From the IMG/VR virus record IMGVR_UViG_3300036399_000385, positions 1-39,917 of that record: a stretch of 39,917 bases of DNA; one strand, given 5' to 3'. The first letter of the stretch is position 1; each line of letters starts with the position of its first letter. This document shows positions 4,925 to 33,994 of this stretch, piece by piece. The notes under the pieces are model-generated. The model ran no database searches, was not told where the DNA came from, and saw nothing but the letters and a program-made list of their open reading frames with translations. The stretch is from a virus. A program made the translations under genes and the position numbers.

Positions 4925-6562
4925 TTAAAGAGTCTCTAAACCATCAATTACGATTTTACCGTAGAATTCTGGTCTTACGATTTTCTTAGCGTAACGAGTC
5001 ATAACTCCTCTTCTTGGAGTGAAGTTAGTTGGGTCGTACACTAATGGAGTCATAATCAACGGAACGTATGGAGCGTAAACCGCACCTGTCTCGAAGAAGT
5101 TAGAACCTTTAAATCCTAATAAGATAACGTTCTCAGTCATATAAGGGTTTTTGTAAACATCGTATCTGTTTGAGATTTGTCCGATGTTAGTTACACCCGC
5201 TGCGAAAGTTAATGCATCTTTACCAGGGTTTGCAGAGAATCCGTTCATTGATTCTAAGATTGTAGCTACGTTAGGAGAAACAACAACGAAGTTTGCTCCA
5301 CCTCTCATAGTCAATTGGTGAATCTTGTTAGAGATTTTCTGTAATTTGATTCCTAAAGTCTGGAACCAAGTTGATTTTGTGTATGCTGAAGCTGCTGCTG
5401 CATTTGAATCAATTGTGAAAGCAGAACCATTCCAATCATATCCAACTCTTGCTGACCAATATTCAGAAGAGAATGCGTTTTGCTGCAACATCTCTAAGAT
5501 TTCTAAGTCAATCTCTAATGAGATATACTCAGATAACATTTGAGTTAATTCAGCTTCTGCATCTACAGAGTGGTAAGCGTTTAAGTCTTGCGCTAATTCT
5601 GGAGTCCAAATTGCTTTCAACTTACGAGTCTTAGCAACGATAGGCTCAGATTTCAATTCTAATTCGATTTCTGGGATTGCTAAAGCAGTTGGGTTATTAT
5701 AATCTGTACTTCTATCTTCGAAATCACCTCTTGAAATATCAGTTGGTTGTACGTGGTATGCTAATTCACCACCTACAGAAGTTGCACCTGCATAAGTACC
5801 AGCCGCATCAACTGCTGCTATAAATACTACGTTAGTACCATTTTTTACAGTAAATTGAGGATATAATGTATATCCAGAACCACTTTGTGCAAAATCAAAT
5901 GCTCTTACACCATTGAAATCAGCATCTGCTGGCAATGCTACAGTTAATTTTTTAACTTTACCTGCTGCGTAAGATGCAGAAACAGTTGAGTTAGATAAAT
6001 CAAATGAAATATCTGCTAAAGATGCAGATGCTAAAGTAGCTGCAGTTGCAACTGCAGTATCATTGATTGTGTATCCAAAACGACCTGCACCATACAAACC
6101 ACCTTCAGTAGCTTGAGTTGAACCTAATTTGTTTCCTGATGGAGATTGTGAATCTTTACCAAAAGTACCACCGTTACCAAACATAGAAGAACCAGAAGCT
6201 GGTCTATTTGCATCGTTAGCAGTACCATATTTAAAGTCCATATAGAAAATAAGACCTGATGGTAAGTTCATTGGTTGAACCGAAACGAATTCTTTCGCTG
6301 CGATAGAACCGAAGATACGACGTACCAATGGAAGAGCAACACCTGCCCACTCTTCTGAACCAGAAGAAGTACCTGTACGAGTTGCCTCGTCCAATAATTG
6401 CTTAGCTTGGTTTTCTAACATTACTGCCATACCATGCTTAGTTGTTTCAGAACCTACTCCTTCAAGTAATCCTGTTTTTTCCCACTTGCCTTTCAAACCT
6501 CTAGTTTGCTCAAGCATTACGCTCTGTGGGTTAGCACCTGTCATTAATTTTTTTAAGTTCAT
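4925..6562 (-). CDS. 23: Major capsid protein (T4 gp23-like)
   Basis: A 545-residue capsid subunit with clear gp23 hallmarks: M-L-E-N-Q near residue 48, V-Q-P-M-N-L-P-S-G-L-I-F (95-106), R-K-L-K-A-I-W-T-P-E-L-A-Q-D-L (313-327), and near the end Y-A-P-Y-V-P-L, F-T-P-R-R-G-V-M-T-R-Y and the closing V-I-D-G-L. In T4 the prohead protease removes about 65 N-terminal residues at an L/I-x-E site; here L-D-E|A at residues 57-60 sits at the matching place. Residues about 160-280 are an Ala/Gly/Ser-rich insertion-type domain. The leader (TTTAATTCAAAATG) has no Shine-Dalgarno sequence. It is co-oriented with the scaffold gene 20 bases upstream and is followed by a strong terminator. Confidence 0.95.
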   Translation of the reverse strand: MNLKKLMTGANPQSVMLEQTRGLKGKWEKTGLLEGVGSETTKHGMAVMLENQAKQLLDEATRTGTSSGSEEWAGVALPLVRRIFGSIAAKEFVSVQPMNLPSGLIFYMDFKYGTANDANRPASGSSMFGNGGTFGKDSQSPSGNKLGSTQATEGGLYGAGRFGYTINDTAVATAATLASASLADISFDLSNSTVSASYAAGKVKKLTVALPADADFNGVRAFDFAQSGSGYTLYPQFTVKNGTNVVFIAAVDAAGTYAGATSVGGELAYHVQPTDISRGDFEDRSTDYNNPTALAIPEIELELKSEPIVAKTRKLKAIWTPELAQDLNAYHSVDAEAELTQMLSEYISLEIDLEILEMLQQNAFSSEYWSARVGYDWNGSAFTIDSNAAAASAYTKSTWFQTLGIKLQKISNKIHQLTMRGGANFVVVSPNVATILESMNGFSANPGKDALTFAAGVTNIGQISNRYDVYKNPYMTENVILLGFKGSNFFETGAVYAPYVPLIMTPLVYDPTNFTPRRGVMTRYAKKIVRPEFYGKIVIDGLETL

Positions 6563-9842: not shown

Positions 9843-9848
9843 AGTAAC

Positions 9849-9858
9849 CGTAAATATA
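9849..9858 (-). promoter_or_regulatory. Variant of the recurrent element before the methyltransferase
   Basis: The minus strand reads TATATTTACG, directly behind the terminator at 9861-9887 and six bases before the chosen methyltransferase start. The layout is the same as at the fibre gene: terminator, element, start. Confidence 0.45.
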
Positions 9859-9860
9859 CA

Positions 9861-9887
9861 AAAAAAGCTTGGAATTACCAAGCTTTT
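9861..9887 (-). terminator. Intrinsic terminator after the 240-residue gene
   Basis: AAAAGCTTGG (9863-9872) and CCAAGCTTTT (9878-9887) form a perfect 10-bp stem with a five-base loop. T runs flank it on both strands, so it may be bidirectional. It ends the transcript of the gene at 9911-10633. Confidence 0.85.
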
Positions 9888-12618: not shown

Positions 12619-13209
12619 TTAGTTTAATTCTATTAATATTTCTCTCATTAAATCTTGTGCTTTACACCATTTACCACACTCATCTGCAATCTTCTTCCAT
12701 TGTTTGGATTCGTTTACAGGTGCCATAAATGCTCCATGTGTAGATGGGTTTGAAACAAAATCCCAACCTACTAATTCAAAATCTTCCTGAACCATTACCG
12801 TACCATCTCTTAATTCTTTTACAGAACCCAATCCTCTTGATGAAATACCTAAACGGATATTGTTTTTTAATAATTCTTTTAAGATGTTACCCGATGGTGT
12901 AGAGAGGATTTCAACAGTTCCACAAACATCATCACCTTCCCAATAGATTTCTCTAACGTTGTGTGATACATTCTTTAAGTTGATAACCGGAGAATCTGGA
13001 TGGTCTAATTCACCTAATGCTCTTCTTTCGTTAATAAGTTGTTGGTATTTTTTACACTCTCTTTCAAGAATTTCTCTTGGGTATCTTCTACCATTTTGGT
13101 TTTCAGCACCTGCTCTTTGCAAAACACCTTTAACAAGTAAAGTACCGTTAGATTCTTCTTGTATTTTTGCTTCAAACAAATGAGTTTCTATCAATAATCC
13201 TTTGCTCAT
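12619..13209 (-). CDS. 21: Prohead maturation protease (gp21-like)
   Basis: A 196-residue serine protease of the T4 gp21/herpesvirus-assemblin type, which cleaves scaffold, capsid and internal proteins after (I/L)-x-E during head maturation. The N-G-R-R-Y-P motif (39-44), catalytic H70 in G-E-L-D-H-P and catalytic S123 or S124 in G-I-S-S-R-G-L-G-S are all present, and W-D-F-V-S-N-P-S-T (149-157) matches the family's C-terminal block. V-N-E|S at 165-168 could be a self-cleavage site. It overlaps the upstream core gene by one base (TAATG). Unlike T4, the scaffold gene does not follow directly; five genes intervene. Confidence 0.93.
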   Translation of the reverse strand: MSKGLLIETHLFEAKIQEESNGTLLVKGVLQRAGAENQNGRRYPREILERECKKYQQLINERRALGELDHPDSPVINLKNVSHNVREIYWEGDDVCGTVEILSTPSGNILKELLKNNIRLGISSRGLGSVKELRDGTVMVQEDFELVGWDFVSNPSTHGAFMAPVNESKQWKKIADECGKWCKAQDLMREILIELN

Positions 13210-15590: not shown

Positions 15591-17342
15591 TTACTCTTTT
15601 GTTAAATCTTCTGTTAAAATAGTTTTTTTATTACCATCCATATCCTTAAATATTTCCTGGTATGAGTTTCTTGGCTTGTACTTTACAGAACCTTCTTTTG
15701 TTTTAAGAGTTTTAATTCCTAATGGGTCTCTACCTGTTGGATGGTCATCGTGTCCGTATCTAACAGGGTCTTTTGGTCTACCAACTGAGTTTGTTGTTAA
15801 TTCAGATTTTAATCTATCTAATTCTTCTTCTACATTTGTAGTTTCCCCACCTTCTACACCGGTTGGTTTAGCAGGGTCTGTTCCCTGAGTTTCAATAGAT
15901 GTTAAACGGAACATTTGTTTTGTATCTTCTAATACCTGCAATGTTAATTCATCTTGCTCATCTTTTGCCATCTTCATTACGGATTCATACATCCATTCTT
16001 TAGAAAACATCTTTGTTTGTTGCATTTGTTGGATTAAAGCTACCTTTGAAGTGTATAATTCAACTTGCTCTTGTTCGTATATTTTAGATGGAACGGTTAA
16101 TTCCAATGTAAAATTAGTTAAACGGTCATCATTTATACCTTGCGCGTATAAGTGAACGATTGCAATTTTAGTTAATTCTGAAATTAATACTCTTTGAACT
16201 CTTTCAATTGTTTTAGCAAAACGAATATCCATAGATGCCAATGTTGCTTTACCATTAGTATCTTCCTCATATCCTAAATATGCTTTTGGAATTTTTAGAG
16301 ATGCCATTAACTTATTCTTTAAATAGTTAATATCATCAATCATATTGTATTCTAAACCTTTTAAGGTATCGATAGATGTACCATTATCATTACCACGAAC
16401 TGGCATATAATAATCTTCAATAAGGTTTTGAACGTTGTATTTTAAATTGTATTCACCAGTTCTTTCATCAACAAATGGAACTTTTTTAGAGTTGTTGATA
16501 ATTTTCTGCATATAATTATCTACCTCATTTGGTGGAATATTACCTACATCAATTTTAAAGATTCTCTTTTCAGGTGCTCTCATTACTCTGTGGATTAACA
16601 TTGCATCTTCCATCAACATTAATTGTTTCCACACTCTTCTACCACCTTCAATTACTGATTTACCATATGGTAAAAAGTTTGAATCTGAATTCAATCTCAT
16701 ATGGCACATTTCGTAGTTTTCAAATTCTTTTTTTGGACTCATACCAAATGCTCCGTATGGATTTTGATATGGTGCATATACAAATTTAACTCTTTGTGGA
16801 TTATTTTCATCAAACCCCTCCATTCTACTAACTTCATATGCAGATAAAGGCATTACATTTATAATACCAATACCTTCTTCTTCTGCTATTTCTAAATGTA
16901 AAAAGAAATCTCCGTATTTAACCAAATTTCTTGTCCAAGGCCAAAGATTGAATTCAACATTTAAAATATCATAAAACAAATTTTCCAATATTTGTTTGAT
17001 ATTATCATCTTCATGATGTATCTTTAGAACATTACCTTGTTCATTTTTTGCAGTACATTCATCTGCGTAAATATCTAATGCCGATGAAAGAATCGGGTCT
17101 TGGTCCATTGAATCGTAATCTCTGAATAAATCTATACGAACTTGTTGATAAGCCATAGATGATTCCATTTGACCAGTTCCATAATTAGTTACCTTTAACT
17201 TCATGAATCTGTCAACTAGATTCGTGGTCATATTTTGCCACTCATCTGTGTCAATTACCTTTGTTCCAGTTTCCGTTTTACGAACAATGGTGTTTGTTGA
17301 AAATAATTTTTGTAACCTACCTAATACTGATTTATCTGCCAT
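15591..17342 (-). CDS. 20: Portal vertex protein (gp20-like)
   Basis: A 583-residue portal subunit; twelve copies would form the DNA entry channel and start head assembly. It is close to T4 gp20 in size (524). Recognisable blocks are D-P-I-L-S-S-A-L-D-I-Y-A-D-E (82-95), Y-G-D-F-F-L-H-L (143-150), R-V-M-R-A-P-E-K-R-I-F-K-I-D-V-G-N (252-268), and the wing/stem region with L-K-I-P-K-A-Y-L-G. The last about 90 residues are polar with a run of charged repeats, as in other T4-like portals. It follows the 165-residue gene with a 59-base gap holding a variant of the recurrent element. Confidence 0.94.
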   Translation of the reverse strand: MADKSVLGRLQKLFSTNTIVRKTETGTKVIDTDEWQNMTTNLVDRFMKLKVTNYGTGQMESSMAYQQVRIDLFRDYDSMDQDPILSSALDIYADECTAKNEQGNVLKIHHEDDNIKQILENLFYDILNVEFNLWPWTRNLVKYGDFFLHLEIAEEEGIGIINVMPLSAYEVSRMEGFDENNPQRVKFVYAPYQNPYGAFGMSPKKEFENYEMCHMRLNSDSNFLPYGKSVIEGGRRVWKQLMLMEDAMLIHRVMRAPEKRIFKIDVGNIPPNEVDNYMQKIINNSKKVPFVDERTGEYNLKYNVQNLIEDYYMPVRGNDNGTSIDTLKGLEYNMIDDINYLKNKLMASLKIPKAYLGYEEDTNGKATLASMDIRFAKTIERVQRVLISELTKIAIVHLYAQGINDDRLTNFTLELTVPSKIYEQEQVELYTSKVALIQQMQQTKMFSKEWMYESVMKMAKDEQDELTLQVLEDTKQMFRLTSIETQGTDPAKPTGVEGGETTNVEEELDRLKSELTTNSVGRPKDPVRYGHDDHPTGRDPLGIKTLKTKEGSVKYKPRNSYQEIFKDMDGNKKTILTEDLTKE

Positions 17343-17401: not shown

Positions 17402-17899
17402 TTACCACTTTCTACAAGACCAATACCTTGCTTTATGTCTCGGTCCTGGTTGTTCACAATTATGTCTTGCTCTAAAACTTCTTCTTCTATCTGGATTATT
17501 CTTTTTAATTTTAACTCCTTTTTGACCAAAGTTTACTTTTACAATATTACCTTGTGGATTTTTAACATATACTTTGAATTTTTTAACATCACCTGCCATT
17601 GGTTTACCCAATTTAACTTGTCTGCCTTGATATTCTGCTTCTCTTAAACATTGACAACCTTCATTTAGGTTTTTATCATATCCTCTCATAAAAGCAATGA
17701 AATCTTCCATATCCTCATCTTCAACATCGTATTCTTCTGGTTCTACTAAACCATAGTTTACATCTGCATCCGAATCAATATCTTCTTTTACAGGAACACA
17801 GTTTGGGACTTCTCTACCATCCTTATCTTTCATTCCAACCATTTCGTATCCTTTCCAACAAGGATTTTCTAATTCTTTTATGATTTTACTTAAATTCAT
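17402..17899 (-). CDS. Two-part small head protein with likely protease sites
   Basis: 165 residues between terminase and portal. The N-terminus (M-N-L-S-K-I-I-K-E|L) resembles a targeting peptide. Next comes N-P-C-W-K-G-Y-E-M-V-G-M-K ... P-N-C-V-P (12-36), a motif I know from unannotated aquatic-phage proteins, then an acidic linker (40-68). Two possible prohead-protease sites follow: L-N-E|G (78-81) and L-R-E|A (85-88). The C-terminal domain (88-165) is basic and ends S-F-R-A-R-H-N-C ... K-A-R-Y-W-S-C-R-K-W, another conserved phage module, perhaps nucleic-acid binding given its charge. The function is unknown; processing in the capsid is inferred. Confidence 0.78.
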   Translation of the reverse strand: MNLSKIIKELENPCWKGYEMVGMKDKDGREVPNCVPVKEDIDSDADVNYGLVEPEEYDVEDEDMEDFIAFMRGYDKNLNEGCQCLREAEYQGRQVKLGKPMAGDVKKFKVYVKNPQGNIVKVNFGQKGVKIKKNNPDRRRSFRARHNCEQPGPRHKARYWSCRKW

Positions 17900-17939: not shown

Positions 17940-19547
17940 TTACTGAAGTAACCAAGTTAAGTTTTCTATTTCTTTATTACCCACTTCCATCTCATATGGA
18001 TTTCTACTTAAATGACCAGTAGATACAAATCCGTCGTATTTAGCTATATGTGATGAATTCAACATATTTTTTGTTAAATCTATTCCCTCTTGTCTTAAAC
18101 GAAGTGCAGTATTACGAACCCATAACCCAATTGCCAATGCCATAATTAAGTCGTCATTGTATCCCTTCATTGCTTCTGCTCTACCACTTTGCCAAATAAA
18201 TGTAAACATTTCATCAATTAATCTACCACTACGAATAAGAATATCTTTCTCACTCATATAAGTATCTAGCGCTGAAATGATAAGAGGACGAGTTTTAGAT
18301 GTTGTAGAGAAACCTGCAACCATTTGTTTTTCATCTCTGTAAAATCTGTTGCTCATTTGTCTTTCAACATCGATATATTTTAAATCATTACTCATATAGA
18401 ATAGATTTTGGTATCCCCTATCTATAATTTGTTGGATACATGCCCAACCTACGTTTGAGTTTTCTACTACTAATAATGCGTTGTTGTATTCAGTTGCTAA
18501 TGAAGTGAGGAAGTTTCCAAAATCTTTGGTATCAATCATTCCTCTATATTCGGCAACTTGTGAACAATCTTCAATATCCAAAACTTGAGCAGTTGAATAA
18601 TCGGCAGCATCTCCTCTTGCAACGTCAGCTACAACCATATATTGTTTGTTGTAGTTTGGATATTCCCATTTCCATAGGTTTCTATCAAATCCTGCTTTTT
18701 CAACAGGTTCCATTACATATGTGTTCTTATACCAAGTTAATAATTCAGGGTCTATTACTGTATCTCCAGAACCAACAAAGTCACAATCACATTCTTGTGC
18801 TGCTCCTTTTGCTCCCAAAATACGAGTTTGTTCATCTCTCCATTGTTGGTTTCTTTCAGGGTGAACTGTCCAATGTAGATTTATACAATTGAAACCATTT
18901 GCACCATTTTCTCCCTCTACCCACATTTTGTGAAACCAGTTACCAATACCATTTGGTGTAGATAATACAATTGCCGAACCACCGGTTGATAAAGTGGATT
19001 GTGCAGATAACCAAATCTCATCAATATCTCTAATAAATGCCGCTTCATCTACTACTAATAGGGATAGAGCTTCCGAACGTCCTGCATCAGGTGAGGATGC
19101 GATTGCTTTAACCTGAGAACCGTTCTTTAGTTTAAGTGATAGTTTGTTATCTTCAACCGAAGAGTTGCCACCATCTCTTAACCAGATAGGTAATAAATCG
19201 TGCATTACCCGTACCTTTTCAACTAAGTTTTTTGCAACCGTTACTTTAGTTGCAATAACCAATGCATTAAAATCTTCGTTGAATAACATCTTCCAAAGAA
19301 TAAATCCCGCAGAAAGGGTTGATAAACCTAACTGACGAGATTTAAGAATAATATTAAAACGGTCTTCTTTAAAATCTGTTAAACAATTCTCCTGAAATGG
19401 ATATAAGTGAAAAGGTATTTTACCTCTCGTTGGGTGTTGAATAACACAATATTTTTTCATAAAGTAAATTGGGTCTTGCCCGCATTTACGATATTCTTCT
19501 GCAATTATCTCTTTGAGAGATTTTTTAGGTTGCCCTTGAACTGCCAT
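17940..19547 (-). CDS. 17: Terminase large subunit (gp17-like)
   Basis: A 535-residue DNA-packaging motor. The ATPase domain has S-R-Q-L-G-L-S-T (70-77, Walker A variant), V-V-D-E-A-A (165-170, Walker B with catalytic Glu) and S-T-P-N-G (196-200, coupling motif). The nuclease domain has V-V-A-D-V-A-R-G-D (305-313), V-V-E-N-S-N-V-G and Y-N-D-D-L-I-M-A-L-A, the acidic RNase-H-fold triad. The length is slightly below T4 gp17 (610). In T4, sheath and tube genes separate it from the portal gene; here only the 165-residue gene does. It starts one base after the spanin-like gene. Confidence 0.96.
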   Translation of the reverse strand: MAVQGQPKKSLKEIIAEEYRKCGQDPIYFMKKYCVIQHPTRGKIPFHLYPFQENCLTDFKEDRFNIILKSRQLGLSTLSAGFILWKMLFNEDFNALVIATKVTVAKNLVEKVRVMHDLLPIWLRDGGNSSVEDNKLSLKLKNGSQVKAIASSPDAGRSEALSLLVVDEAAFIRDIDEIWLSAQSTLSTGGSAIVLSTPNGIGNWFHKMWVEGENGANGFNCINLHWTVHPERNQQWRDEQTRILGAKGAAQECDCDFVGSGDTVIDPELLTWYKNTYVMEPVEKAGFDRNLWKWEYPNYNKQYMVVADVARGDAADYSTAQVLDIEDCSQVAEYRGMIDTKDFGNFLTSLATEYNNALLVVENSNVGWACIQQIIDRGYQNLFYMSNDLKYIDVERQMSNRFYRDEKQMVAGFSTTSKTRPLIISALDTYMSEKDILIRSGRLIDEMFTFIWQSGRAEAMKGYNDDLIMALAIGLWVRNTALRLRQEGIDLTKNMLNSSHIAKYDGFVSTGHLSRNPYEMEVGNKEIENLTWLLQ

Positions 19548-20178: not shown

Positions 20179-20847
20179 CTATTGTTTTACAAGTTCAGGG
20201 TGGTTTAATTCCACCAATTTTTCTTCTAATGCTAATTTTCTTTCTAAAAGTGCTTCGATTGCATCGTATGCACCGTTTATATCGGTTCTAATATCTTCTT
20301 TTACTTTTTCAATATCAATATCCCATTGCCAATTTGAAATAGTACCATTTTCATTTACCATTTCAACCTGTTGTTTAACACCTTCTAATGCTTCTTCGTA
20401 TTGAGCTTTTAAATCTCTAACATAACCCAATTTATTCAATGTTATTTTATAATCTTCATAAAAAGGATACGTTCCATCTGCTCTTAATACTGTTTCTTGT
20501 TTTGCCAAACAATCTAAACAAAGGGTAGTTTTGACAATTGCCTTTTTATCAGAGGTACTATATTTTATTGTTTTACATTCCGATGAAGCACACTTACTAA
20601 TTTTTTGTAAGTATTCTCTCACCTTATCCATTTTAGTTAGGTTTGTTCTAAACCCATCTTTTTGTTCCCACTCTACACCCTCACTATCAACCCATTTTTC
20701 ACCAATTTCTCTTTTTTTGTCAGATTCTTTTTCATAACCAAATGTTGTTTGATTATCATCCGTTCTTCCAAAAACAGTATCTATAACTAATTGACGTGAT
20801 TTGTGAATGTGTTTGTTTTTTTCTTCAAAGGATTTTCTCTTTGCCAT
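20179..20847 (-). CDS. Zinc-ribbon phage protein upstream of the terminase
   Basis: 222 residues. A segment E-K-W-V-D-S-E-G-V-E-W-E-Q-K-D-G (about 50-65) followed by C-A-S-S-E-C ... C-L-D-C (about 86-117) suggests a zinc ribbon. The C-terminal half is coiled-coil helix (Y-E-E-A-L-E-G-V; L-L-E-R-K-L-A-L-E-E-K-L). I recall related unannotated genes upstream of terminase genes in marine T4-like phages. T4 has small terminase gp16 at this place, and the coiled coil would suit an oligomer, but no helix-turn-helix is visible, so a gp16 role is only a possibility. Confidence 0.65.
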   Translation of the reverse strand: MAKRKSFEEKNKHIHKSRQLVIDTVFGRTDDNQTTFGYEKESDKKREIGEKWVDSEGVEWEQKDGFRTNLTKMDKVREYLQKISKCASSECKTIKYSTSDKKAIVKTTLCLDCLAKQETVLRADGTYPFYEDYKITLNKLGYVRDLKAQYEEALEGVKQQVEMVNENGTISNWQWDIDIEKVKEDIRTDINGAYDAIEALLERKLALEEKLVELNHPELVKQ

Positions 20848-20894: not shown

Positions 20895-23800
20895 TTAGTA
20901 AAAAATACCTAAAATCTGATTTAATGGTGCAAAAGTTCCTGTAAGTTTATAAGTGTTTCCTTTATAAATGAATACAATACCCTCATTTGGAACAATTTTT
21001 TCTAATCCACCAATTGATTGTAATCTTGCTAATTCTTGTTTTAATTTGGCAATTTTAGTTATATCTCCACTACCTCTTACTTTATCAGCAGTATCTTTTA
21101 ATCTTTGTTTCATACTAGCAACTGCTGCATTTGGATTTGCAGTTAATACCGAATCCATAAATGATAATACATCTGCTCCAACTCCTAAGAATATCTCCTC
21201 AAATGGTCTGATATTATCTTTTTGTTGTTTTGCCACATTTACTTTATCATTATCTATTGCCCACTTTTGAGCGTCTTTATCAGTAATGGTATTTAAACGG
21301 AATGATTTATCACCAAATGCCCATCTGTTAATCAAAGCATCTCTTTCTAACTTTTGTAATTTAACTTTACTCTTATCTATAAAATTTGCCCACCAAGCTT
21401 GATGATATTCAGCAACACCATCCTTATTACTTAATTGAAATTCAAATTGTAATTTTTGTAATTGTGTTAAATATTTAGTTTGTTTAGAACCTAATTCTTC
21501 ATTTTTGGGTAATTGAGTTACTGGTGGTCCTTGAATTGTATATTTAGATTGAACATCTGCATTTACTTGCTTAATCATCCCTGCTAACATAGTTGCTGCT
21601 CCTTGATTTGAACCAACCGCAACACCATTTTCACCATAACAAGTTGTGTTGTGGAATACCAATAATGGTTGTCCATAAGGTATTACATTTACCGATGTAG
21701 GCCAGATAACTTCCAAGTTCATAAAACATTTACCCTCATCGAAAATCTTCTTTCTCTGTGGTTCTGATAATCCACTAATTGCCGCAGTTAAATCTCTCAT
21801 AGCAAAGTTATAAGCATCGGTTAATCCACCTCTACCACCAAACTTTGATGCAACATCTTCAATACCCATTGCGTTTGCTCCTGCATTTGCCAAATGTCCT
21901 TTGTTTCTTGCTGCAATTAATCTACCATTTTTCCAACTAATTGCGAGAGCTTGTCCATCGGTTTTTTCTCTTGTCAATTCTAAATTACCAGTTAATGCTC
22001 CTGTAATAATATTCTTTAAATCACCAAAAGTTAAATCCATATCATCAAACGGGTGAGACATATGTCCGTATGCACCACCCTCTGATATTACAGATTTGTT
22101 TACCGATTCATTTATAACTTGCCCACCATTGTTGTTGATAAAGTTTTCAATATCAGCCTCATTCTTTGCAACTTCTACATTTTTGTATTTTTGCTTTACT
22201 TGGTTTATTTGTTTTTCGGTATCTTCGGCATCATCTCTATCAAATGTCCAACTTCCAATTTGCGTTTTGGTTTTTACAAGTGATGGAATAACTAAAATCT
22301 TTTCAATTTTTATATTAGTAAGAACTACTTCATTCCAATCCGATTCATAATATAATGTGTTAGCATTTGAATATCTATCCACAAATTCTTTTTTCTTACT
22401 CAACATAAATTTTTCAGCTGCTTCAAAATATTTTTTTATGAATTCAGCTTTTTCTGCATTTGAAGTTGTTCCATCAAAATATTCTTTCTGATATTTTTCT
22501 TTGTATGGTTTTAATTCAGGTGCAAAATTATAAACTTGGTCTCTTTCTCTATTTGGATTTCCAAACATAGCACCTGGCTCAATCCATCTTCTACCTTGCT
22601 TATCAGGATAAGTCCACAAATCGTGAATACTTTGTGCTAATACAGTTCCTGTCATTGATACAATCACACCACCCTTTGTCCACAATCCTTTACCTTGTGC
22701 AATTTTGCCAGTTTTTGTAGTTTTATTGAATGTGGAAATTGATTTTTTAGTTCCTTCTAATGCTGCTACTTTTGATAAATTATCAATATCTGTTATATGC
22801 AATGATTTTGCAACTATTGGGTCTACCAATTTTTTAACGATATTTAATGATAATGGAACTTCACCATGCAAACATTTATCAAACACTTCACTTTCCCATT
22901 TAAGTCCTTCGTTTAAAGATTCTTTTAAACTTCTTTTTTTAAGAATTATTTGTTGAATTTGTGAAAATATAGATTGTATATCTTTATCCAATTGCTTTTC
23001 ATCTGCACTCATTGGTGATTCAATATCAACATTAGAGTATAGTTTTTTCTTTTTAGCAATTAAAACATCTACCTTTTTAATTAAGTCGTTTCTTACTTTA
23101 TCCAAATCTTTTATGATTTCAGATGGAGTTTCTTCGTTTACGATTGTAGGAGATGTTGTTTGAAAATTACCTTTTCTCATTACAGTTTTAGCAATAACTT
23201 TATTTGCCATTTTTACAAATGGAATGTTGATATTACTTCTATCGTCTTTAACTACGATTTGATTGTACTTTTCTAAAAAATCTAAAAATTGTTTTTTATG
23301 ACGTGTTAATCTTTTAAAAAAACCAGTTAGTTCTGGTTCTGATATTTCTTTACCATTACGAGTATCATTTACTCTATCAAAAAAATGATTACTAAATTCA
23401 ATATCAGCAGGTTCTAATTCTCTATCTGCATATCTTTCAACACTATCTAAATTAGATTGTGTTAATTTTTCATTTAACTTTTTTTTTTCAATATATTCAG
23501 ATAATCTCAATTTATCGGTAATATCAGTTACCTCTTCATAATCGGTATCTCTTAATTGAACTACTATATCTCTTCTACTAGCATTTGGGTCATTGCAAAC
23601 TGCTACTCCAATTTTCTTTTTACCAAATGAATTAGATTTATCGTACAACTTCATAATTGCTTTAAAATGCCAATCGTTTGTTGTTACTTCTTTTAAACCT
23701 AAATCATCACCTACATCTGTTATATCTCTATATCCAAAATTTCTTAATTCTTTTGCAATATCGTTTCTATCTGCATTTGGGTCTTTACAAACAGCTGCTC

Positions 23801-26525
23801 CAATTTTCTTTTTGCCAAATGAACTTGCATTATCCCACATTTTCATAATTGCTTTGAAACGCCAATCATTTGAGCCGACTTCATTAAATACCGATTGTGG
23901 ATTTGGTTTTTCTTCTTCTCCTCTTGGTATTCTAAATGTAGCTGCTTTTTTACCATTAATTGTTGGCATCCCATGGTCATCAGTTCCAATATCTTTAACA
24001 GTAGTTCTTTTGTTTTTAAACTTACCCATTAAAACGGTATCACCTTTATCAACATCTATAGTAATTACTTCGTTATAAATTGTTTTGTTTAATTTACCGT
24101 ATTCTCTTAATAAGATTGCTGCTATTGAATTTGCTTTGTTTTCAACTTCCGAACCAGTTGCCCCATCTTTTACTGAATCACCAATCAATCCCATTTCATC
24201 TTGCTTTCTATGAACCATTTCATGAGCAATAGTTCTTAAAATATCAGCAGTTAATCTACCTTCAGTTGCTACAAATATTTCTTTAGAATCAACATTATAT
24301 CCACCTAATGAATGGTTTTGTCTTGAAAACTCAGGGTCTTCTACCAATGTAATTTTAGGAGTTTCTTTTAAATTTAATCTTTTGGTTGCATATTCTACAA
24401 AATGATTTACGTTTTCTCTTTTTGATGGAGAAACTGCTTCATTCATTGAACCAACTATTTTATTTAAACTATTTTTTTGTTTGGTTTCTGCATATGATTT
24501 TAACATTTCCAAATATTGTTTTGGATTTGGTTCAAATGTTTGCATTTTTTCCAAAGTTTGTTTTAACAATTCAGTAAATGCACTTGCGTTTTGATTGGTA
24601 TCATTTTCTTCATATAAATTTTCTCCAACAAGTCCTGCACCTAATGCCAAATTTCCCGCTTGTTTATGTCCAGAACCTGCTGCCATAAATACGGATTCTT
24701 TAAAACAATGTTTTCCAAAATCAACTGCCATATGATGTAAAAACCCAAGTGCACCCTCCCCAAATGTAGATGCTGCACCTTTTACAACTTCACCACCTGC
24801 TCCACTTACTCCTTTACCCGCTAAATATGCACTTTTACCTGCCGTAAATGCTCCCGTTAATACAACTGCCGCTGCGGTTATTGCAATATCTTTACCAGTA
24901 GCCCAAAATGCCTTTTTTTGTCTTACTCTTTCACTTTCACTTTGTTTCCATGTTCCATCCCTATCTTTAAACCATCCAAATTCAGGTTTACCACCATTCA
25001 TTGTAGATAATGCTAATGATTTAACACCTCTAACAGTATTTTTTACTTGATGAACTTTTTGTTTTGCAACTTTTAAAGCATAATTTGCTATATTTGCTGG
25101 CATTTTTGCTATAAAATCAGTAGCAGTTTCTGTCCAATTTTTTCTAATTTTAGAATTAGGGTCATGCCCTTCATTGGCAGCTTCTACCTCATCATCATCT
25201 AAAAATGTATTAATAGTATTTCCAATTTCTTTAATTTCTTCTTTAAATTTATCTCCCCATTTTGCAAAGATACCGTTATTATTACCATCATTTTTCTTTT
25301 CAGCTGATGATTTTAATTCATCTCCACTTAACGTTTGTGAAACTTCTGGTTCTGCTCCTTGTGATGGGGATGTTGTAGATTGCCCTTTGGTTGCATCTAC
25401 TTTTCCTTGTTGTGTTTGCCCTTGCTTAACTGGTTGTCCAGGTTCAGATGGTTTTGCCGATTGAGTTGCCGCTTTTCCTTGTTGTGGTAATTTTTTAGGT
25501 TCGTTTGCCGGTGCATCTGCTGGTCCTTTTGCCATTGTAGATGATTTATCAGTACCAACCATTTTAGAAGCTTGAACGTGTGCAGGATGGTCTTTTGCCA
25601 ATCTTAAAGCACTCTTAACTTTAATTTTCTTCTTACTTCCATCTGCCGCAGTATAATCAAACTCTTTATCCATTATAGGATTAGGAGCTTCATTAAAATA
25701 TTTTTTAGTAAATTCATTAAAAACTTCTTCTGCAACAAATCTATCTATTATATGTCCAATTGGGTCATATAAACTTTCATTCTTATACCAATCTGGTTCG
25801 TCCGATGGATGTTCTATTTGGTGTCTTGTTGGCTTTGGTTCAGGTCTTAATGCAGAAGATGGTTCTGTGTTATTTGATTCGTTTGCAGAACCTGTTGGTG
25901 CTCCATTAATATATCCACCTGGAAGATTCAATCCTGTTCCGATTCCTCCTGGAAAACCATCTTCGTTTAATTTGTTTGTTATCATTTTAAAAATATCTGC
26001 ATTGAACTTTGGATATGCTTTTAAGAATCCTTTCTTTTTAGATTCATCATCTCCACTACCTAACCAATTACGAACATCCGTTCCACTAATTGGGTTTGAT
26101 TCGGCAGGAACTGCATATGTATATCCTATCTCATCATATCCATATCCAGTTTTACCTTTATATGGTTTAAAGTATTTACCACTTAATCTACTTTCATCTT
26201 TTTCCCCAACTGCTGCAATATAAGCAGTAGTTTTTCCATCAAAACTTTGTAATATTTCTTTGGGAGCATATGGATTTGATACTTGTATAAACTTATCAGA
26301 TGGAACATTAAACATTTTGGTTGCTATTTCCTTCTTTTCTTTAAAATCAAATGGAGATTTTGGACCAGATGTACTATTAGATGTTGCAATATATACATTA
26401 TCCTTACCAAACTTTTTAGCAAGTTTTAGATAGGATACATAGTGTCCAGCATGAAATGGTTGGAAACGTCCTGAATATACTACAACTAAATCCGTTACTT
26501 CCGGCTTATCTACTTCTAATTTCAT
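20895..26525 (-). CDS. Giant multi-enzyme virion polyprotein candidate
   Basis: 1876 residues, the largest gene here. In order: HxGH nucleotidyltransferase of the NMN-adenylyltransferase type (about 10-175; H25-A-G-H28, I-S-G-T-D-V-R 146-152); a phage module near 240-325; a Gln/Pro/Thr-rich linker (340-400); a glycine-rich, partly hydrophobic region (540-640); a zinc metalloprotease-like domain (H-E-M-V-H, 768-772); a 64-residue tandem repeat (883-1010); a module near 1040-1125 (F-S-N-H-F-F-D-R-V-N-D) known from other phages; an unassigned domain (1207-1465); and a ligase-type nucleotidyltransferase (K1521-T-D-G, E1605, E-G-I-V 1848-1851, K1860). Sites ending N-E, K-E or S-E after a hydrophobic residue mark most borders (188, 271, 279, 696, 819, 882, 946, 1019, 1131, 1206, 1473, 1482). 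This suggests cleavage by the prohead protease and ejection with DNA. That role is inference. Confidence 0.8.
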   Translation of the reverse strand: MKLEVDKPEVTDLVVVYSGRFQPFHAGHYVSYLKLAKKFGKDNVYIATSNSTSGPKSPFDFKEKKEIATKMFNVPSDKFIQVSNPYAPKEILQSFDGKTTAYIAAVGEKDESRLSGKYFKPYKGKTGYGYDEIGYTYAVPAESNPISGTDVRNWLGSGDDESKKKGFLKAYPKFNADIFKMITNKLNEDGFPGGIGTGLNLPGGYINGAPTGSANESNNTEPSSALRPEPKPTRHQIEHPSDEPDWYKNESLYDPIGHIIDRFVAEEVFNEFTKKYFNEAPNPIMDKEFDYTAADGSKKKIKVKSALRLAKDHPAHVQASKMVGTDKSSTMAKGPADAPANEPKKLPQQGKAATQSAKPSEPGQPVKQGQTQQGKVDATKGQSTTSPSQGAEPEVSQTLSGDELKSSAEKKNDGNNNGIFAKWGDKFKEEIKEIGNTINTFLDDDEVEAANEGHDPNSKIRKNWTETATDFIAKMPANIANYALKVAKQKVHQVKNTVRGVKSLALSTMNGGKPEFGWFKDRDGTWKQSESERVRQKKAFWATGKDIAITAAAVVLTGAFTAGKSAYLAGKGVSGAGGEVVKGAASTFGEGALGFLHHMAVDFGKHCFKESVFMAAGSGHKQAGNLALGAGLVGENLYEENDTNQNASAFTELLKQTLEKMQTFEPNPKQYLEMLKSYAETKQKNSLNKIVGSMNEAVSPSKRENVNHFVEYATKRLNLKETPKITLVEDPEFSRQNHSLGGYNVDSKEIFVATEGRLTADILRTIAHEMVHRKQDEMGLIGDSVKDGATGSEVENKANSIAAILLREYGKLNKTIYNEVITIDVDKGDTVLMGKFKNKRTTVKDIGTDDHGMPTINGKKAATFRIPRGEEEKPNPQSVFNEVGSNDWRFKAIMKMWDNASSFGKKKIGAAVCKDPNADRNDIAKELRNFGYRDITDVGDDLGLKEVTTNDWHFKAIMKLYDKSNSFGKKKIGVAVCNDPNASRRDIVVQLRDTDYEEVTDITDKLRLSEYIEKKKLNEKLTQSNLDSVERYADRELEPADIEFSNHFFDRVNDTRNGKEISEPELTGFFKRLTRHKKQFLDFLEKYNQIVVKDDRSNINIPFVKMANKVIAKTVMRKGNFQTTSPTIVNEETPSEIIKDLDKVRNDLIKKVDVLIAKKKKLYSNVDIESPMSADEKQLDKDIQSIFSQIQQIILKKRSLKESLNEGLKWESEVFDKCLHGEVPLSLNIVKKLVDPIVAKSLHITDIDNLSKVAALEGTKKSISTFNKTTKTGKIAQGKGLWTKGGVIVSMTGTVLAQSIHDLWTYPDKQGRRWIEPGAMFGNPNRERDQVYNFAPELKPYKEKYQKEYFDGTTSNAEKAEFIKKYFEAAEKFMLSKKKEFVDRYSNANTLYYESDWNEVVLTNIKIEKILVIPSLVKTKTQIGSWTFDRDDAEDTEKQINQVKQKYKNVEVAKNEADIENFINNNGGQVINESVNKSVISEGGAYGHMSHPFDDMDLTFGDLKNIITGALTGNLELTREKTDGQALAISWKNGRLIAARNKGHLANAGANAMGIEDVASKFGGRGGLTDAYNFAMRDLTAAISGLSEPQRKKIFDEGKCFMNLEVIWPTSVNVIPYGQPLLVFHNTTCYGENGVAVGSNQGAATMLAGMIKQVNADVQSKYTIQGPPVTQLPKNEELGSKQTKYLTQLQKLQFEFQLSNKDGVAEYHQAWWANFIDKSKVKLQKLERDALINRWAFGDKSFRLNTITDKDAQKWAIDNDKVNVAKQQKDNIRPFEEIFLGVGADVLSFMDSVLTANPNAAVASMKQRLKDTADKVRGSGDITKIAKLKQELARLQSIGGLEKIVPNEGIVFIYKGNTYKLTGTFAPLNQILGIFY
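23496..23879 (-). repeat. Tandem 64-residue repeat inside the giant protein
   Basis: Residues 883-946 and 947-1010 are two copies with a constant 64-residue period (W888 and W952 align). Each contains N-D-W-x-F-K-A-I-M-K, S-F-G-K-K-K-I-G and D-P-N-A, and each is preceded by a hydrophobic-x-E|V site (F-N-E|V, L-K-E|V). DNA copies are diverged, so the duplication is old. No known family was recognised. Confidence 0.85.
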
Positions 26526-26741: not shown

Positions 26742-27713
26742 ATGAAGATATTAATTACAGGTGGAGCCGGATATTTAGGTTCTGTTATAGTTGGTAGAAT
26801 GTTACAAGAAGGACATTCCGTTATAGTTTTAGATAAACTACTATTCAATCAAACTTCTTTATTACAATACACTCATCATTCTGAGTTTAAATTTATCTAC
26901 GGAGATGTTCGTAATGAAAAACTATTGGAAAGACTCTGTAATCAAGCAGATGTGATTATTCCATTAGCAGCAATTGTAGGATTTCCCGCTTGTGATGCCG
27001 AACCTCAATTGGCAAAAGAATTAAATTTAATTCAAATTCAAAACATAGTAAAATTTACAAAAGATAAAGGTAAAAAGATTTTATATCCAAACACAAATAG
27101 TGGATATGGAATTGCAGAAGGTGAAACAGAATGTACTGAAAAATCCCCATTAAATCCAATATCTATTTATGGTTCTACTAAAGTTGAAGCAGAAAACTTC
27201 TTAAAAGAACACACAGATGCAATTATTTTTAGATTAGCAACTGTATTTGGAGTATCACCTCGTATGAGAACTGATTTATTGGTAAATGATTTTACTTATA
27301 AAGCAATTACTGATAAATACATTGTAGTATTTGAGAAAAACTTTAAAAGAAACTTTATTCATATAGAAGATGTAGCAAATGCTTTCTTATTTATGTTACA
27401 CAACTACGATGCATACAAAGGTGAAGTATTTAATGTTGGTTTAAGTGATTCGAATTTAAATAAACAACAATTATTGGAAAAAATAAAATTACAAGTTCCA
27501 AAATTCGCAATAGTTTATGATGATTATTACGAAGACCCCGATAAAAGAGATTACATAGTTTCTAATGCCAAAATTGAAGCAACAGGTTGGAAACCAACTT
27601 GGAGTTTGGATGATGGTATTGAACAACTTATAGAAGCATATCAAATGATAGTTCCAAGAATGGGAGCAGAATTTAGAAACGGATTCCCATTAGGTTACGC
27701 AAACAATACATAA
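26742..27713 (+). CDS. NAD-dependent sugar epimerase/dehydratase
   Basis: A 323-residue extended short-chain dehydrogenase acting on nucleotide sugars. G-G-A-G-Y-L-G (7-13) binds the dinucleotide, N-S-G-Y-G (119-123) is the serine region, and Y143-G-S-T-K147 is the catalytic Y-x-x-x-K. Substrate-side blocks include F-R-L-A-T-V-F-G-V-S-P-R-M-R and N-F-I-H-I-E-D-V-A. It is the first gene of the plus-strand operon, with an A/T-rich leader and no Shine-Dalgarno sequence. The overall pattern fits NDP-sugar 4-epimerases or dehydratases; the exact substrate cannot be read. It overall resembles the other two such enzymes here only distantly. Confidence 0.88.
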   Translation: MKILITGGAGYLGSVIVGRMLQEGHSVIVLDKLLFNQTSLLQYTHHSEFKFIYGDVRNEKLLERLCNQADVIIPLAAIVGFPACDAEPQLAKELNLIQIQNIVKFTKDKGKKILYPNTNSGYGIAEGETECTEKSPLNPISIYGSTKVEAENFLKEHTDAIIFRLATVFGVSPRMRTDLLVNDFTYKAITDKYIVVFEKNFKRNFIHIEDVANAFLFMLHNYDAYKGEVFNVGLSDSNLNKQQLLEKIKLQVPKFAIVYDDYYEDPDKRDYIVSNAKIEATGWKPTWSLDDGIEQLIEAYQMIVPRMGAEFRNGFPLGYANNT

Positions 27714-27714
27714 T

Positions 27715-28251
27715 ATGAGTTCAAATTGGAAAGAGTTCGAAGTAACTCCATCAAAAAAATTCGGAAACGAAGTAGAAATATACACTCCATCTATTTACAG
27801 AGAATATAGAGGAGAAATATTTACAACATTTCATTCAGAGGAACATCCTGTAATGTTAAAACTTACACCATATGTTTCAGTACATGGTAGATTTTCAAAA
27901 TCATACAAAGGTGTATTAAGAGGATTACATTACGATACTAAAACTTGGAAATTAGTTCAAGCAGCAGTCGGTGATATATACCTCATTGTTTTGGATGTAA
28001 GAGAAGATTCTCCTACCTATGGAGATTGGGAATCATTCATTATATCTGAACGTAACAGACAACAAGTATTAGTTCCTCCTGGGTTTGCAAATGGTCACTA
28101 TGCACTTACTGATTGTATGTTTCATTATAATTTATTTTATGATGGTCAATATGTAGATGCAAATGAGCAAGGTGTTGTTAAATGGAATGACCCGGAATTT
28201 CAAATGGAATGGCCAACAGATAAACCAATATTACAAAAAAGAGACAGATGA
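27715..28251 (+). CDS. rfbC: dTDP-sugar 3,5-epimerase (RmlC-type)
   Basis: A 178-residue cupin epimerase of the RmlC family, which inverts C3 and C5 of dTDP-4-keto-6-deoxyglucose on the way to rhamnose and related deoxysugars. V-L-R-G-L-H72-Y carries the catalytic His; V-G-D-I-Y-L-I-V-L-D-V-R, V-P-P-G-F-A-N-G-H and V-K-W-N-D-P (Asp159) are the other family blocks. The length is normal. It follows the epimerase gene by one base, and its TGA overlaps the next ATG (ATGA). No RmlA or RmlB is visible, so the substrate may come from the host or from genes outside the window. Confidence 0.85.
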   Translation: MSSNWKEFEVTPSKKFGNEVEIYTPSIYREYRGEIFTTFHSEEHPVMLKLTPYVSVHGRFSKSYKGVLRGLHYDTKTWKLVQAAVGDIYLIVLDVREDSPTYGDWESFIISERNRQQVLVPPGFANGHYALTDCMFHYNLFYDGQYVDANEQGVVKWNDPEFQMEWPTDKPILQKRDR

Positions 28252-28877
28252 TAAAAAACATAGAAAATTTCCCAATTGTTAAGGAATCATTGTGGGATAA
28301 AGATGGATTGATTGATTTTGAAAGAAGAATAGCAGATGCATGGGAAGGTGGTAACATAAGAGGTCCAATACATTTAAGTGGTGGAAATGAAGAACAAATT
28401 ATTGAAATAGGAAAAAGAATTAAATCAACCGATTGGGTATTTAGTACATGGCGTTCTCATTATCACGCATTAGTTAAAGGTGTTGATTCGAAATGGTTAG
28501 AAGATGAAATTCTTGCTGGTAGAAGTATCACTATTGTAAATAAAGAAGAAAAGTTTTATTCATCTGCAATCGTTGGTGGAACAATCTCAATTGCAATGGG
28601 TGTTGCTATGGCAAATAAAAGAAATGGTTCTACAGATAAAGTTTGGTGTTTTGTAGGAGATATGGCATTTGAAACAGGTGCTTTTATGGAAAATTACAAA
28701 TATGCAAAAAACTTTGATTTACCAATTACATTTGTTGTAGAAGATAATGGTGTTTCAACTTATACGCCAACAGTTGAAACTTGGAATGTTAAAAGTGAAA
28801 TTCCAAATGATGTTATTTGGTATGAATACGAAAAAGTTTGGCCTCACTATGGTACTGGAAAATGGGTGGTATTTTAA
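28248..28877 (+). CDS. Thiamine-diphosphate enzyme, alpha (E1-alpha-like) half
   Basis: A 209-residue protein like the alpha subunit of 2-oxoacid dehydrogenase E1 or the N-terminal half of transketolase. R-S-H-Y-H-A-L-V-K-G (69-78) matches the family's substrate-channel His block. G137-D-M-A ... E-D-N167 is the thiamine-diphosphate/Mg motif (G-D-x ... N about 30 residues apart). It is shorter than cellular E1-alpha (about 330-370), so it is a minimal form. The matching beta half is at 33995-34543, five kilobases downstream after four other genes. With sugar enzymes around, it may transfer a two-carbon unit in sugar synthesis; that is inferred. Confidence 0.85.
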   Translation: MIKNIENFPIVKESLWDKDGLIDFERRIADAWEGGNIRGPIHLSGGNEEQIIEIGKRIKSTDWVFSTWRSHYHALVKGVDSKWLEDEILAGRSITIVNKEEKFYSSAIVGGTISIAMGVAMANKRNGSTDKVWCFVGDMAFETGAFMENYKYAKNFDLPITFVVEDNGVSTYTPTVETWNVKSEIPNDVIWYEYEKVWPHYGTGKWVVF

Positions 28878-30118
28878 ATTTAGTTTTTGATAAATGGGAT
28901 ACCGATGGTAAACCGATGGCTAATTTATCAGAGATAAATGAACACATTGGGGGAGAATATATTATTGATTTGCATTTATTATTAAATTTACCGAATCCTT
29001 TAATTTCAATTAATAAATGTAATTTATCAGATGTACAGTTGGGTGAAAACTATTATTATATGATTTCACACAGATGTTCGTTTGAAAGTATGTTCAATTC
29101 GGATGGTTGGGCAATAAATAAAGATGTTGAAGAATGTATTAAAAACAAAAATTTAAAAATTGTATTTTTAAGTGAGCATGAAAGTTATAAAGATTTAAAA
29201 AAATCATTAACAAATCTTATTACATTATTAGATAAAAAACAATTAAATCATAATCAATTTTATATTGTAAATAATAACTCATTATTATATGATTTAAAAA
29301 AAGAATTAAATACAGATATAAATGTTTATAAAATAAATTTTTTATTAGAATCGGTTAGTGATTCTATAACAATAAAAACTGGACAATCTCAAATTGAAAC
29401 TAATAAAAAATTTATATTTTTATGTCAAAATAGAAGACCAAAAAACCATAGATTGGCATTATTAACATTATTAAAAAATAAAAATTTATTAAAAGATGAT
29501 ATTATAGATTGGTCACTAACATATGGTTCAATGAATCAACCTATGTCAGAACTTACAAAATATCAATTTTATATTGATTTTAATAATTTACAATTATTCA
29601 ATGATTACAAAGAAATTTGCTCAAACACAAAATTAAGTTTATATGAAAAAGATGTAGATTGGTGGGAGTCTGAAAATAAATATCATCCTTGGAATCATTT
29701 AGATTTACAAACATTTAACCAAAGTTATATAAATATTACAACGGAATCTCACTTTGATATTGAAGATATACACATAACTGAAAAAACATTTAAACCGTTT
29801 TATTATTTTCAGATGCCTTTATTTTTAGCATCACATCATCATATTAATAAATTAAAGCAAGAACATGATTTATATCTATTTGATGATTTAATAGACCATT
29901 CATATGATAATCAAAAAAATGATAAAGTTAGAATGAATATGGTTGTAGATGAAGTAAATAGATTATCCAATATGAGAAATGATATTGAAAAGTACTATAA
30001 ATCAAACATTGATAAATTAATTCATAATCACAAATATATTAGAGATTTTTATTTAAAAAATGAAACTAATTTATATTTTTTAAATTTAACAAAAACACAA
30101 TCTTTAAATTTAATATGA
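28862..30118 (+). CDS. Glycosyltransferase-like protein with a TEK-type motif
   Basis: 418 residues from the ATG at 28862, which overlaps the upstream gene by 16 bases; an ATG at 28838 in the same frame is less likely. The C-terminal third has I-T-T-E-S-H-F-D and then H-I-T-E-K-T-F-K-P (T306 onward), followed by a hydrophobic strand and D-L-Y-L-F-D-D-L-I-D-H-S-Y-D. This pattern (T-E-S ... T-E-K ... K-P) recalls the nucleotide-sugar domain of GT10 and exostosin-type transferases and recurs in two other genes of this window. F-L-C-Q-N-R-R-P-K-N-H-R marks the start of the fold. Base composition is markedly more AT-rich than the preceding genes. The function as a glycosyltransferase is likely, the substrate unknown. 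Confidence 0.72.
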   Translation: MGGILNLVFDKWDTDGKPMANLSEINEHIGGEYIIDLHLLLNLPNPLISINKCNLSDVQLGENYYYMISHRCSFESMFNSDGWAINKDVEECIKNKNLKIVFLSEHESYKDLKKSLTNLITLLDKKQLNHNQFYIVNNNSLLYDLKKELNTDINVYKINFLLESVSDSITIKTGQSQIETNKKFIFLCQNRRPKNHRLALLTLLKNKNLLKDDIIDWSLTYGSMNQPMSELTKYQFYIDFNNLQLFNDYKEICSNTKLSLYEKDVDWWESENKYHPWNHLDLQTFNQSYINITTESHFDIEDIHITEKTFKPFYYFQMPLFLASHHHINKLKQEHDLYLFDDLIDHSYDNQKNDKVRMNMVVDEVNRLSNMRNDIEKYYKSNIDKLIHNHKYIRDFYLKNETNLYFLNLTKTQSLNLI

Positions 30119-32247: not shown

Positions 32248-33017
32248 TGTTACACGCTTATGGTGATAGTTGGACGGAAGGACAGGGATGTAATAGAATA
32301 GTTGAAGATTTATTATCTAAAGAAGAAAGACCGGCATATCGTAAAGAAAATAGTTGGGTTAAATTTTTAGCAGACAAATTGAATATCCCTTTTATAAATA
32401 ATGGAGTTAGTGGAAATGCTAATAACAAAATATTCAATCAAATTGTTTCTGATATTCAATCTGAAAAAATAAAAAGTGATGATTTTGTTACCATAATGTG
32501 GAGCTCTTCTTTAAGAGATTATGTTCCTTTTTTACCAGATGGTGAATGGGTCACTTGGTCTGTTAAACATTTAATTGAAGAACCACATAAATTTATAAAT
32601 TCTTATAATAGTACCAATACGTTATACGATTCTTTTTTTACTGAATATAAAGAATTTTTTATAGGAGAAATGTTTAATCAGAATTATTATAATATAGTAA
32701 ATCAAAATTACATAATTTTTATCCAAAAACTATTTAAGCATTATAATATAAATTATATAATGTGTGATAGTTTTGAAAGTATGTTAATTAATTTGGATAA
32801 AAAGGATAATATTACACATTTAATAGATAATTCAAAATATTGGGAATTTAATAAACAAACATTCAGAGATTATTTAAATAAAGAAAAAAGATTAGATATT
32901 TGGGAAAATCAAGATGAACAATTTGAAACAAGAGCATCACAACATCCAAATTTAGAAGGTTATAAATTAATAAGTAAAGAGTTATACGGTTACATAAAAA
33001 ACAATAAAATATTATGA
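32244..33017 (+). CDS. SGNH/GDSL-type hydrolase
   Basis: 257 residues. Block I is Y-G7-D-S9-W-T-E-G, with the nucleophile Ser; the block II/III region is N-G-V-S-G-N-A-N-N (53-61); block V is S-Q-H-P-N-L-E-G-Y near residue 233, with the catalytic His. Such enzymes remove or transfer acyl groups on sugars and other esters. No signal peptide is present, so it acts in the cytoplasm or in the virion. It is coupled by ATGA overlaps to the fusion gene before it and the epimerase after it, consistent with glycan acyl modification. Three diverged relatives lie at 35359-39366. Confidence 0.78.
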   Translation: MMLHAYGDSWTEGQGCNRIVEDLLSKEERPAYRKENSWVKFLADKLNIPFINNGVSGNANNKIFNQIVSDIQSEKIKSDDFVTIMWSSSLRDYVPFLPDGEWVTWSVKHLIEEPHKFINSYNSTNTLYDSFFTEYKEFFIGEMFNQNYYNIVNQNYIIFIQKLFKHYNINYIMCDSFESMLINLDKKDNITHLIDNSKYWEFNKQTFRDYLNKEKRLDIWENQDEQFETRASQHPNLEGYKLISKELYGYIKNNKIL

Positions 33018-33991: not shown

Positions 33992-33994
33992 TAT

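Follow-up and report, generated by a model that had tools for sequence, protein, structure and literature searches.

Bacteriophage T4 packs the enzyme Alt and the internal proteins IPI-IPIII into its head by means of capsid targeting sequences, trims them there with the protease gp21, which cleaves after L/I-X-E, and ejects them (PMC9026906). Many packed proteins of phiKZ and SPN3US are cut after a short x-E motif, which is A-X-E in SPN3US (PMC5694885, PMC9026906). A third described group, the polyvalent proteins, comprises large chains that combine unrelated activities, including zincin domains, and for which entry into the host together with the DNA is predicted; in the consulted parts of Iyer et al. 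2017, processing by embedded peptidases is proposed for them, and T4-type ADP-ribosyltransferases are placed outside the genuine polyvalent proteins (PMC5512222). Thus, gp21 processing, injected T4 proteins and polyvalent proteins are all known components. In contrast, a literature search of limited coverage returned no DNA-phage polyprotein with exchangeable cassettes that are each bounded by prohead-protease sites.

Here we analysed a viral DNA stretch of 39,917 nucleotides (the window; IMG/VR virus record IMGVR_UViG_3300036399_000385, positions 1 to 39,917), which carries a gene for an 1876-residue multidomain protein. With a probability of roughly 0.78, this gene encodes a head polyprotein that would be cut by a gp21-type protease into enzymes, which would be kept in the head and injected with the DNA. 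Compared with the described systems, T4 trims terminal propeptides off single enzymes and phiKZ and SPN3US mainly remove propeptides rather than release many domains, whereas up to about ten domains share one chain here. Like the polyvalent proteins, the chain joins several domains with disparate activities, and its relatives carry GNAT- and ParB-like domains. It differs from them in that cutting is probably the task of a separate prohead protease of the gp21 type, whose site is present at nearly every joint, and the parts of Iyer et al. 2017 consulted do not mention a frame of NMN adenylyltransferase and RNA ligase (PMC5512222).

The gene (20895..26525, minus strand) runs from an ATG at 26525 to 20895. 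The giant open reading frame picked out in an earlier sequence-only reading is real: a full-length relative (L005) is 74% identical, a search of viral contigs with the 1876-aa protein returned 53 relatives, several of them full length, and further scans brought the family to 111 full-length members of 644-2108 aa with 49 domain orders. All 111 begin with an NMN-adenylyltransferase-like domain (A) and end with an RNA-ligase-like domain (I), and the cassettes in between are permuted, duplicated, lost and gained across the family. At the same genomic place, the isolated Microcystis phage Mel-JY01 encodes a relative of just two domains (WWT39297.1, 639 aa) with a single joint between them; its candidate sites end at E11 (MGKLINILLSE/) and E238 (NNNIIAE/G239). 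A genome scan queried with the ligase gave six matches, all in metagenome-assembled contigs, so that no cellular source was seen. In the relatives L003, L136, L050, L164 and L181 or their neighbours, ParB-like (DGHHR), GNAT, DUF5661 and PolyA_pol RNA-binding domains were present, several of which are on the polyvalent-protein list.

The same reading had described unrelated domain types in series, and NMN-adenylyltransferase-like, zincin-like, RegB-like and RNA-ligase-like domains, among others, were indeed found along the chain (all minus strand). Domain A (residues 8-186; 25968..26504) matched Pfam CTP_transf_like with 23.2 bits (cut-off 21) and PHROG 395 (E 1.6e-9), and its best-fitting fold was that of NadM (Z 12.6). 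Its GRFQPFHxGH and SGTxxR motifs are invariant columns in the alignment, so that the (H/T)xGH and SxTxxR signatures and the fold of NMN/phosphopantetheine adenylyltransferases are all present. A linker region with modules B1 and B2 follows (residues 189-690; 24456..25961), which is partly disordered and otherwise helical or hydrophobic. Domain C (residues 699-818; 24072..24431) is a zincin-like metallopeptidase according to its alignment, in which HE[ML]xH and a downstream E are invariant; 10 of 12 members gave a weak match to Pfam DUF6782 (putative metallopeptidase). C corresponds to the zincin-like metallopeptidase that forms the common hub of polyvalent proteins, and is present in 68 of the 111 full-length members and absent in 43. 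Family comparison delimited a small conserved module D (residues 820-876; 23898..24068) and, together with an AlphaFold model, two tandem helical repeats E (residues 883-946 and 947-1010; 23496..23879) and a coiled-coil module G (residues 1133-1201; 22923..23129). Elsewhere, E is also fused to small core-like proteins, and small proteins encoded next to gp21 terminate in it.

Between E and G lies a RegB-like domain (F, residues 1021-1130; 23136..23465). Its match to Pfam REGB_T4 (E 5.5e-4, 20.5 bits) stays below the cut-off of 27 and AlphaFold modelled it poorly, but it aligns with T4 RegB over the segment that holds two invariant histidines, which we take to be the RegB catalytic pair. In contrast to T4 RegB, F occurs either as a module or on its own, then with an N-terminus that looks like a leader; it stands alone in Methylophilales phage Melnitz and lies within larger proteins of phiM12 and immuto. 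Domain H (residues 1208-1468; 22122..22904) is defined by the invariant pattern H...SxS[T]F...NEV, which to the eye resembles that of ADP-ribosyltransferases. Sequence profile searches of Pfam and PDB and tblastn against isolated phages gave no match for H, and Foldseek over viral models returned relatives and RNA ligases only.

The C-terminal domain I (residues 1484-1876; 20898..22076) could not be matched by sequence to a Pfam or PDB ligase and was assigned via its predicted fold, which resembled the Naegleria RNA ligase (Z 8.9) and T4 Rnl1 and Rnl2 (Z 7.6-8.3). It shares with these enzymes the KxDG, EGxxF and YKLT motifs (here KTDG, EGIVF and YKLTG, with K-D-G invariant in the alignment), and thus combines KxDG with the ligase fold expected of an RNA ligase nucleotidyltransferase, but differs from them by a long extra helical region. 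In L010 (7200-9000), L035 (1550-3400) and L009, a split intein is inserted exactly at K/TDG, which marks this motif as the active site. It consists of an N-half (CIAGDT...), a separate endonuclease-like open reading frame and a C-half ending in ...ILVHN, and resembles the 'fractured gene' split inteins. An intron was also considered for the split ligase genes of L010; an Rfam search found none, and the insert is the split intein. From the domain types, the enzymes of the chain may serve NAD supply, RNA repair, RNA decay and peptide cleavage.

We re-read the hydrophobic-x-E sites that had been proposed to mark the domain borders. All 14 listed sites have this form in the translation: LNE188, FNE271, FNE279, MNE696, YNE819, FNE882, LKE946, LSE1010, LNE1019, VNE1131, LKE1202, LNE1206, INE1473 and ISE1482. 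The list was incomplete for the strict motif, as seven more [IL]xE are present (433, 639, 721, 729, 808, 1063 and 1588). The majority of the listed sites are located at domain ends or where the pLDDT is under 50, with 946 and 1202/1206 as exceptions. LNE188 (25962..25964; all minus strand) ends the last helix of A, with pLDDT <50 from residue 189 on, and site 279 lies in a stretch of pLDDT <50 in two AlphaFold models. The same low confidence surrounds the sites at the borders B2/C (MNE696, 24438..24440), C/D (YNE819, 24069..24071), D/E1 (FNE882, 23880..23882), F/G (VNE1131, 23133..23135) and H/I (INE1473, 22107..22109), as well as ISE1482/G directly before the ligase (22080..22082). At the border E2/F there are two sites, LSE1010 (23496..23498) and LNE1019 (23469..23471), the latter with pLDDT <50. 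LKE946 (23688..23690) sits in a loop between the E repeats, and LKE1202 and LNE1206 (22908..22922) lie at a predicted helix end at the border G/H (pLDDT about 57). The unlisted sites 433 and 639 are in low-confidence stretches, while 721, 729 and 808 (zincin), 1063 and 1588 (ligase) lie inside domains, where they are presumably shielded if they remain uncut; the I/L-x-E motif alone therefore does not define cutting. Shuffles gave 2.4 ± 1.5 occurrences of [ILVMFY]-N-E, compared to 10 in the actual chain. For plain [IL]xE there is no enrichment over the 1876 residues (15 versus 16.3), because its concentration in linkers and its depletion in domains are opposite effects.

To compare site placement across relatives, we collected 305 distinct linkers of 68 junction types. 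[ILVMFY]xE was found in 278 and [IL]xE in 201 of them, whereas random in-domain windows of the same length predicted 60 ± 7 and 18 ± 4, respectively. Domain limits had initially been drawn near the sites of the earlier reading; when borders were instead taken from raw BLAST alignment ends, a noisy test owing to divergence and indels inside B1 and B2, the signal pointed in the same direction but was weaker (19% versus 9% within 5 aa). The ligase border was positioned from the conserved start of the ligase itself. Its 111 distinct 10-mers all have L (79) or I (32) at P3; 108 have E at P1, G occupies P1', and almost any residue occurs at P2. Of 182 relatives, 179 have I/L-x-E directly ahead of the ligase. 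Two exceptions, L131 and L181, arise from an HNH-type insert placed right on the site; L003, which is only distantly related, remains as the one real exception. The HNH-endonuclease-like inserts of L131 (4006-7206) and L181 (3101-5614) sit exactly at the I/L-x-E/G border, and the end of L181 additionally matches Pfam Hint, as one half of a Hint/intein. Thirteen different domain types occur upstream of this border, with several codons at P3, P2 and P1. Since P2 and the codons vary and P3 and P1 are fixed, selection acts on the protein rather than on the DNA.

Inside domains, the strict motif is avoided. In non-redundant domain interiors, 187 [IL]xE were observed compared to 364 expected (0.51), whereas the controls [VMFY]xE (1.21), [IL]xD (0.91) and [IL]xK (1.33) and [IL]xE in 290 other open reading frames of the same contigs (1.23) were near or above expectation. 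The motif was below expectation in A, C, E, F, H, I and Y, and B2 was the sole module without depletion (69 versus 53 expected). Within-class shuffles ranked [IL]xE as the motif with the greatest depletion in domains, at z -7.0, and showed its strong enrichment in linkers, at z +12.9; as relatives are not independent, these z-scores overstate significance, and we put weight on the avoidance repeating across unrelated domains. F/V/M/Y-N-E was enriched in linkers as well, but not depleted in domains. Hence, the proposal that hydrophobic-x-E marks the borders holds on both counts for I/L at P3 and by linker enrichment alone for F/V/M/Y-x-E, and cutting at the latter sites is uncertain because they are not avoided in domains. 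Had the sites fallen inside domains of homologues without conservation, the sequence-only reading would have failed; the alignments gave the opposite result, as the sites stay at the borders even though domains are permuted, lost and gained.

Sites are also found at protein starts. Most relatives have a short N-terminal leader that ends in I/L-x-E (MNLNE/, MNLxE/ or MKGLAKFLVETILGE/) and is similar to the T4 capsid targeting sequences, whereas the 1876-aa protein starts with MKLEVDK and has no such leader. Stand-alone copies of the ligase are preceded by leaders such as MIRLHKILNE/VLLKE/G and MKFLKSYEEFLNE/NLILE/G. A short leader with I/L-x-E at its end, as in these stand-alone ligases and at most N-termini of the family, is the arrangement of Alt and the T4 internal proteins. 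The earlier suggestion to look for the domains as separate genes was thus borne out for both the ligase and the RegB-like domain.

The genomic surroundings are those of head genes. Downstream of the polyprotein gene and on the same strand are two small genes, the terminase, portal, gp21-like protease, scaffold-like protein and capsid protein. The next gene (20179-20847, minus strand) has its homologue next in 98/98 relatives where it was found, and the large terminase (17940..19547, minus) is downstream on the same strand in 80/80, the portal protein (15591..17342, minus) on the same strand in 53/53 and the gp21-like prohead protease (12619..13209, minus), the proposed cutter, on the same strand in 4/4 such relatives. 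The latter had been recognised before as a gp21 homologue, which PHROG 207 (E 5e-54) and 34% identity to T4 gp21 bear out; the GELxHP and SSRGLGS stretches are kept in the alignment. A scaffold-like acidic protein (6583-7902, minus) and the major capsid protein (4925..6562, minus) follow. The capsid protein aligns at the gp23-type cut site, QLLDE59/A60 (codon 6386-6388), with QLISE/A of Mel-JY01 and FLTE65/A66 of T4 gp23. The phage therefore has both a gp21 homologue and L/I-X-E at its proposed processing points, and the pattern at the ligase border (L/I at P3, E at P1, P2 free) is the rule of T4 gp21.

Other genes of the window lie nearby. Between terminase and gp21, the small proteins at 13209-13823, 17402-17899 and 13823-14410 look like short, modular core proteins that share the hydrophobic-x-E joints; relatives of the first (L051-L057) end in the E module of the polyprotein, and in L052 (9345-10175) a module X is joined to the NPCWKGYEM module of the second. 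A DNA-methyltransferase-like gene (8514-9881, minus; PHROG 12517/498) lies in the head block between protease and capsid protein, and a 564-aa protein beside gp21 (10915-12609, minus) has leucine-rich-repeat-like text and a C-terminal part that matches phage structural proteins (PHROG 3545, 701). On the opposite strand, a nucleotide-sugar epimerase-like cluster (26742-34543, plus; PHROG 540 three times, dTDP-4-dehydrorhamnose epimerase-like) is probably involved in surface-sugar modification.

These data bear on which protease acts. The invariant HExxH...E of C, its presence in 68 of 111 full-length members and the processing that Iyer et al. propose for polyvalent proteins (PMC5512222, in the parts consulted) would fit a chain that processes itself through the embedded zincin, before packaging or in the host, with the x-E sites as those of C. 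We consider this improbable. Of the 43 full-length members that have neither C nor any HExxH, 41 retain I/L-x-E immediately ahead of the ligase; in this group, 53 of 60 linkers carry a site and the motif is still avoided inside A and I (85 versus 174 ± 12). Because members without zincin or HExxH retain both site and in-domain avoidance, we assign the cuts to the prohead protease, whose motif is the one observed and agrees with the site of the capsid protein. A gp21-type protease, and not self-cleavage, is therefore the likely cutter.

Whether cutting takes place at all is itself a sequence-based inference, and N, E and K are abundant in the linkers. It is thus conceivable but unlikely, if by a hair the least unlikely of the alternatives, that the chain acts in the virion without being cut, like the N4 virion RNA polymerase, and that the x-E motifs reflect flexible-linker composition or recombination seams. 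I/L-x-E stands out from composition in within-class shuffles and next to control motifs, P2 and codons vary with P3 and P1 fixed, and seams would not predict in-domain avoidance. NMN adenylyltransferases and RNA ligases are also ordinary cytoplasmic phage enzymes, but a multidomain cytoplasmic enzyme of late infection that is never packaged is the most remote explanation, given the gene's fixed place in the head gene block, the prohead-protease motif at the joints and the leader-like N-termini of relatives and stand-alone ligases.

We therefore return to the head polyprotein. Domain order and shuffling, motif placement, in-domain avoidance, synteny, the protease and the capsid-protein site can be read directly at the level of sequence; packaging, cleavage and injection we infer from gene place and motif, and enzyme roles from the domain types. 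The polyprotein would be synthesised late together with the head proteins and enter the prohead core, where the gp21-type protease would cut after (I/L)-x-E in flexible linkers and probably also at some F/V/M/Y-N-E linker sites. Products would be the NMN-adenylyltransferase-like enzyme, the zincin, small helical modules, the RegB-like RNase, domain H and the RNA-ligase-like enzyme, which would remain in the mature head, enter the host with the DNA and form a kit that acts early to control NAD and RNA. Cassettes would be swapped between phages along with their cut sites. From a fixed frame with site-bounded cassettes it would follow that one gene loads customised, equimolar separate enzymes into every capsid. 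It is likely, at a somewhat lower confidence than for the window's own gene, that a true polyprotein system of a DNA phage exists in the T4-like aquatic phages, with a fixed NMN adenylyltransferase to RNA ligase frame, interchangeable enzyme cassettes bounded by prohead-protease sites, a customised equimolar enzyme set per capsid, and a protease specificity that shapes all cargo sequence.

RNA viruses release sets of proteins from one chain. The capsid-protease cut site at nearly every joint of the giant protein indicates that its series of exchangeable enzymes is probably packed, chopped and delivered with the DNA, and viral metagenomes contain relatives of this phage group by the hundreds. 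If true, head maturation would be widened from propeptide trimming to the freeing of a whole early-enzyme set from one chain, and packed cargo and cut sites would become readable from sequence. The enzymes for NAD supply and RNA repair and the RNase would be candidates for counter-defence, and the arrangement suggests a modular route for loading proteins into phage heads.
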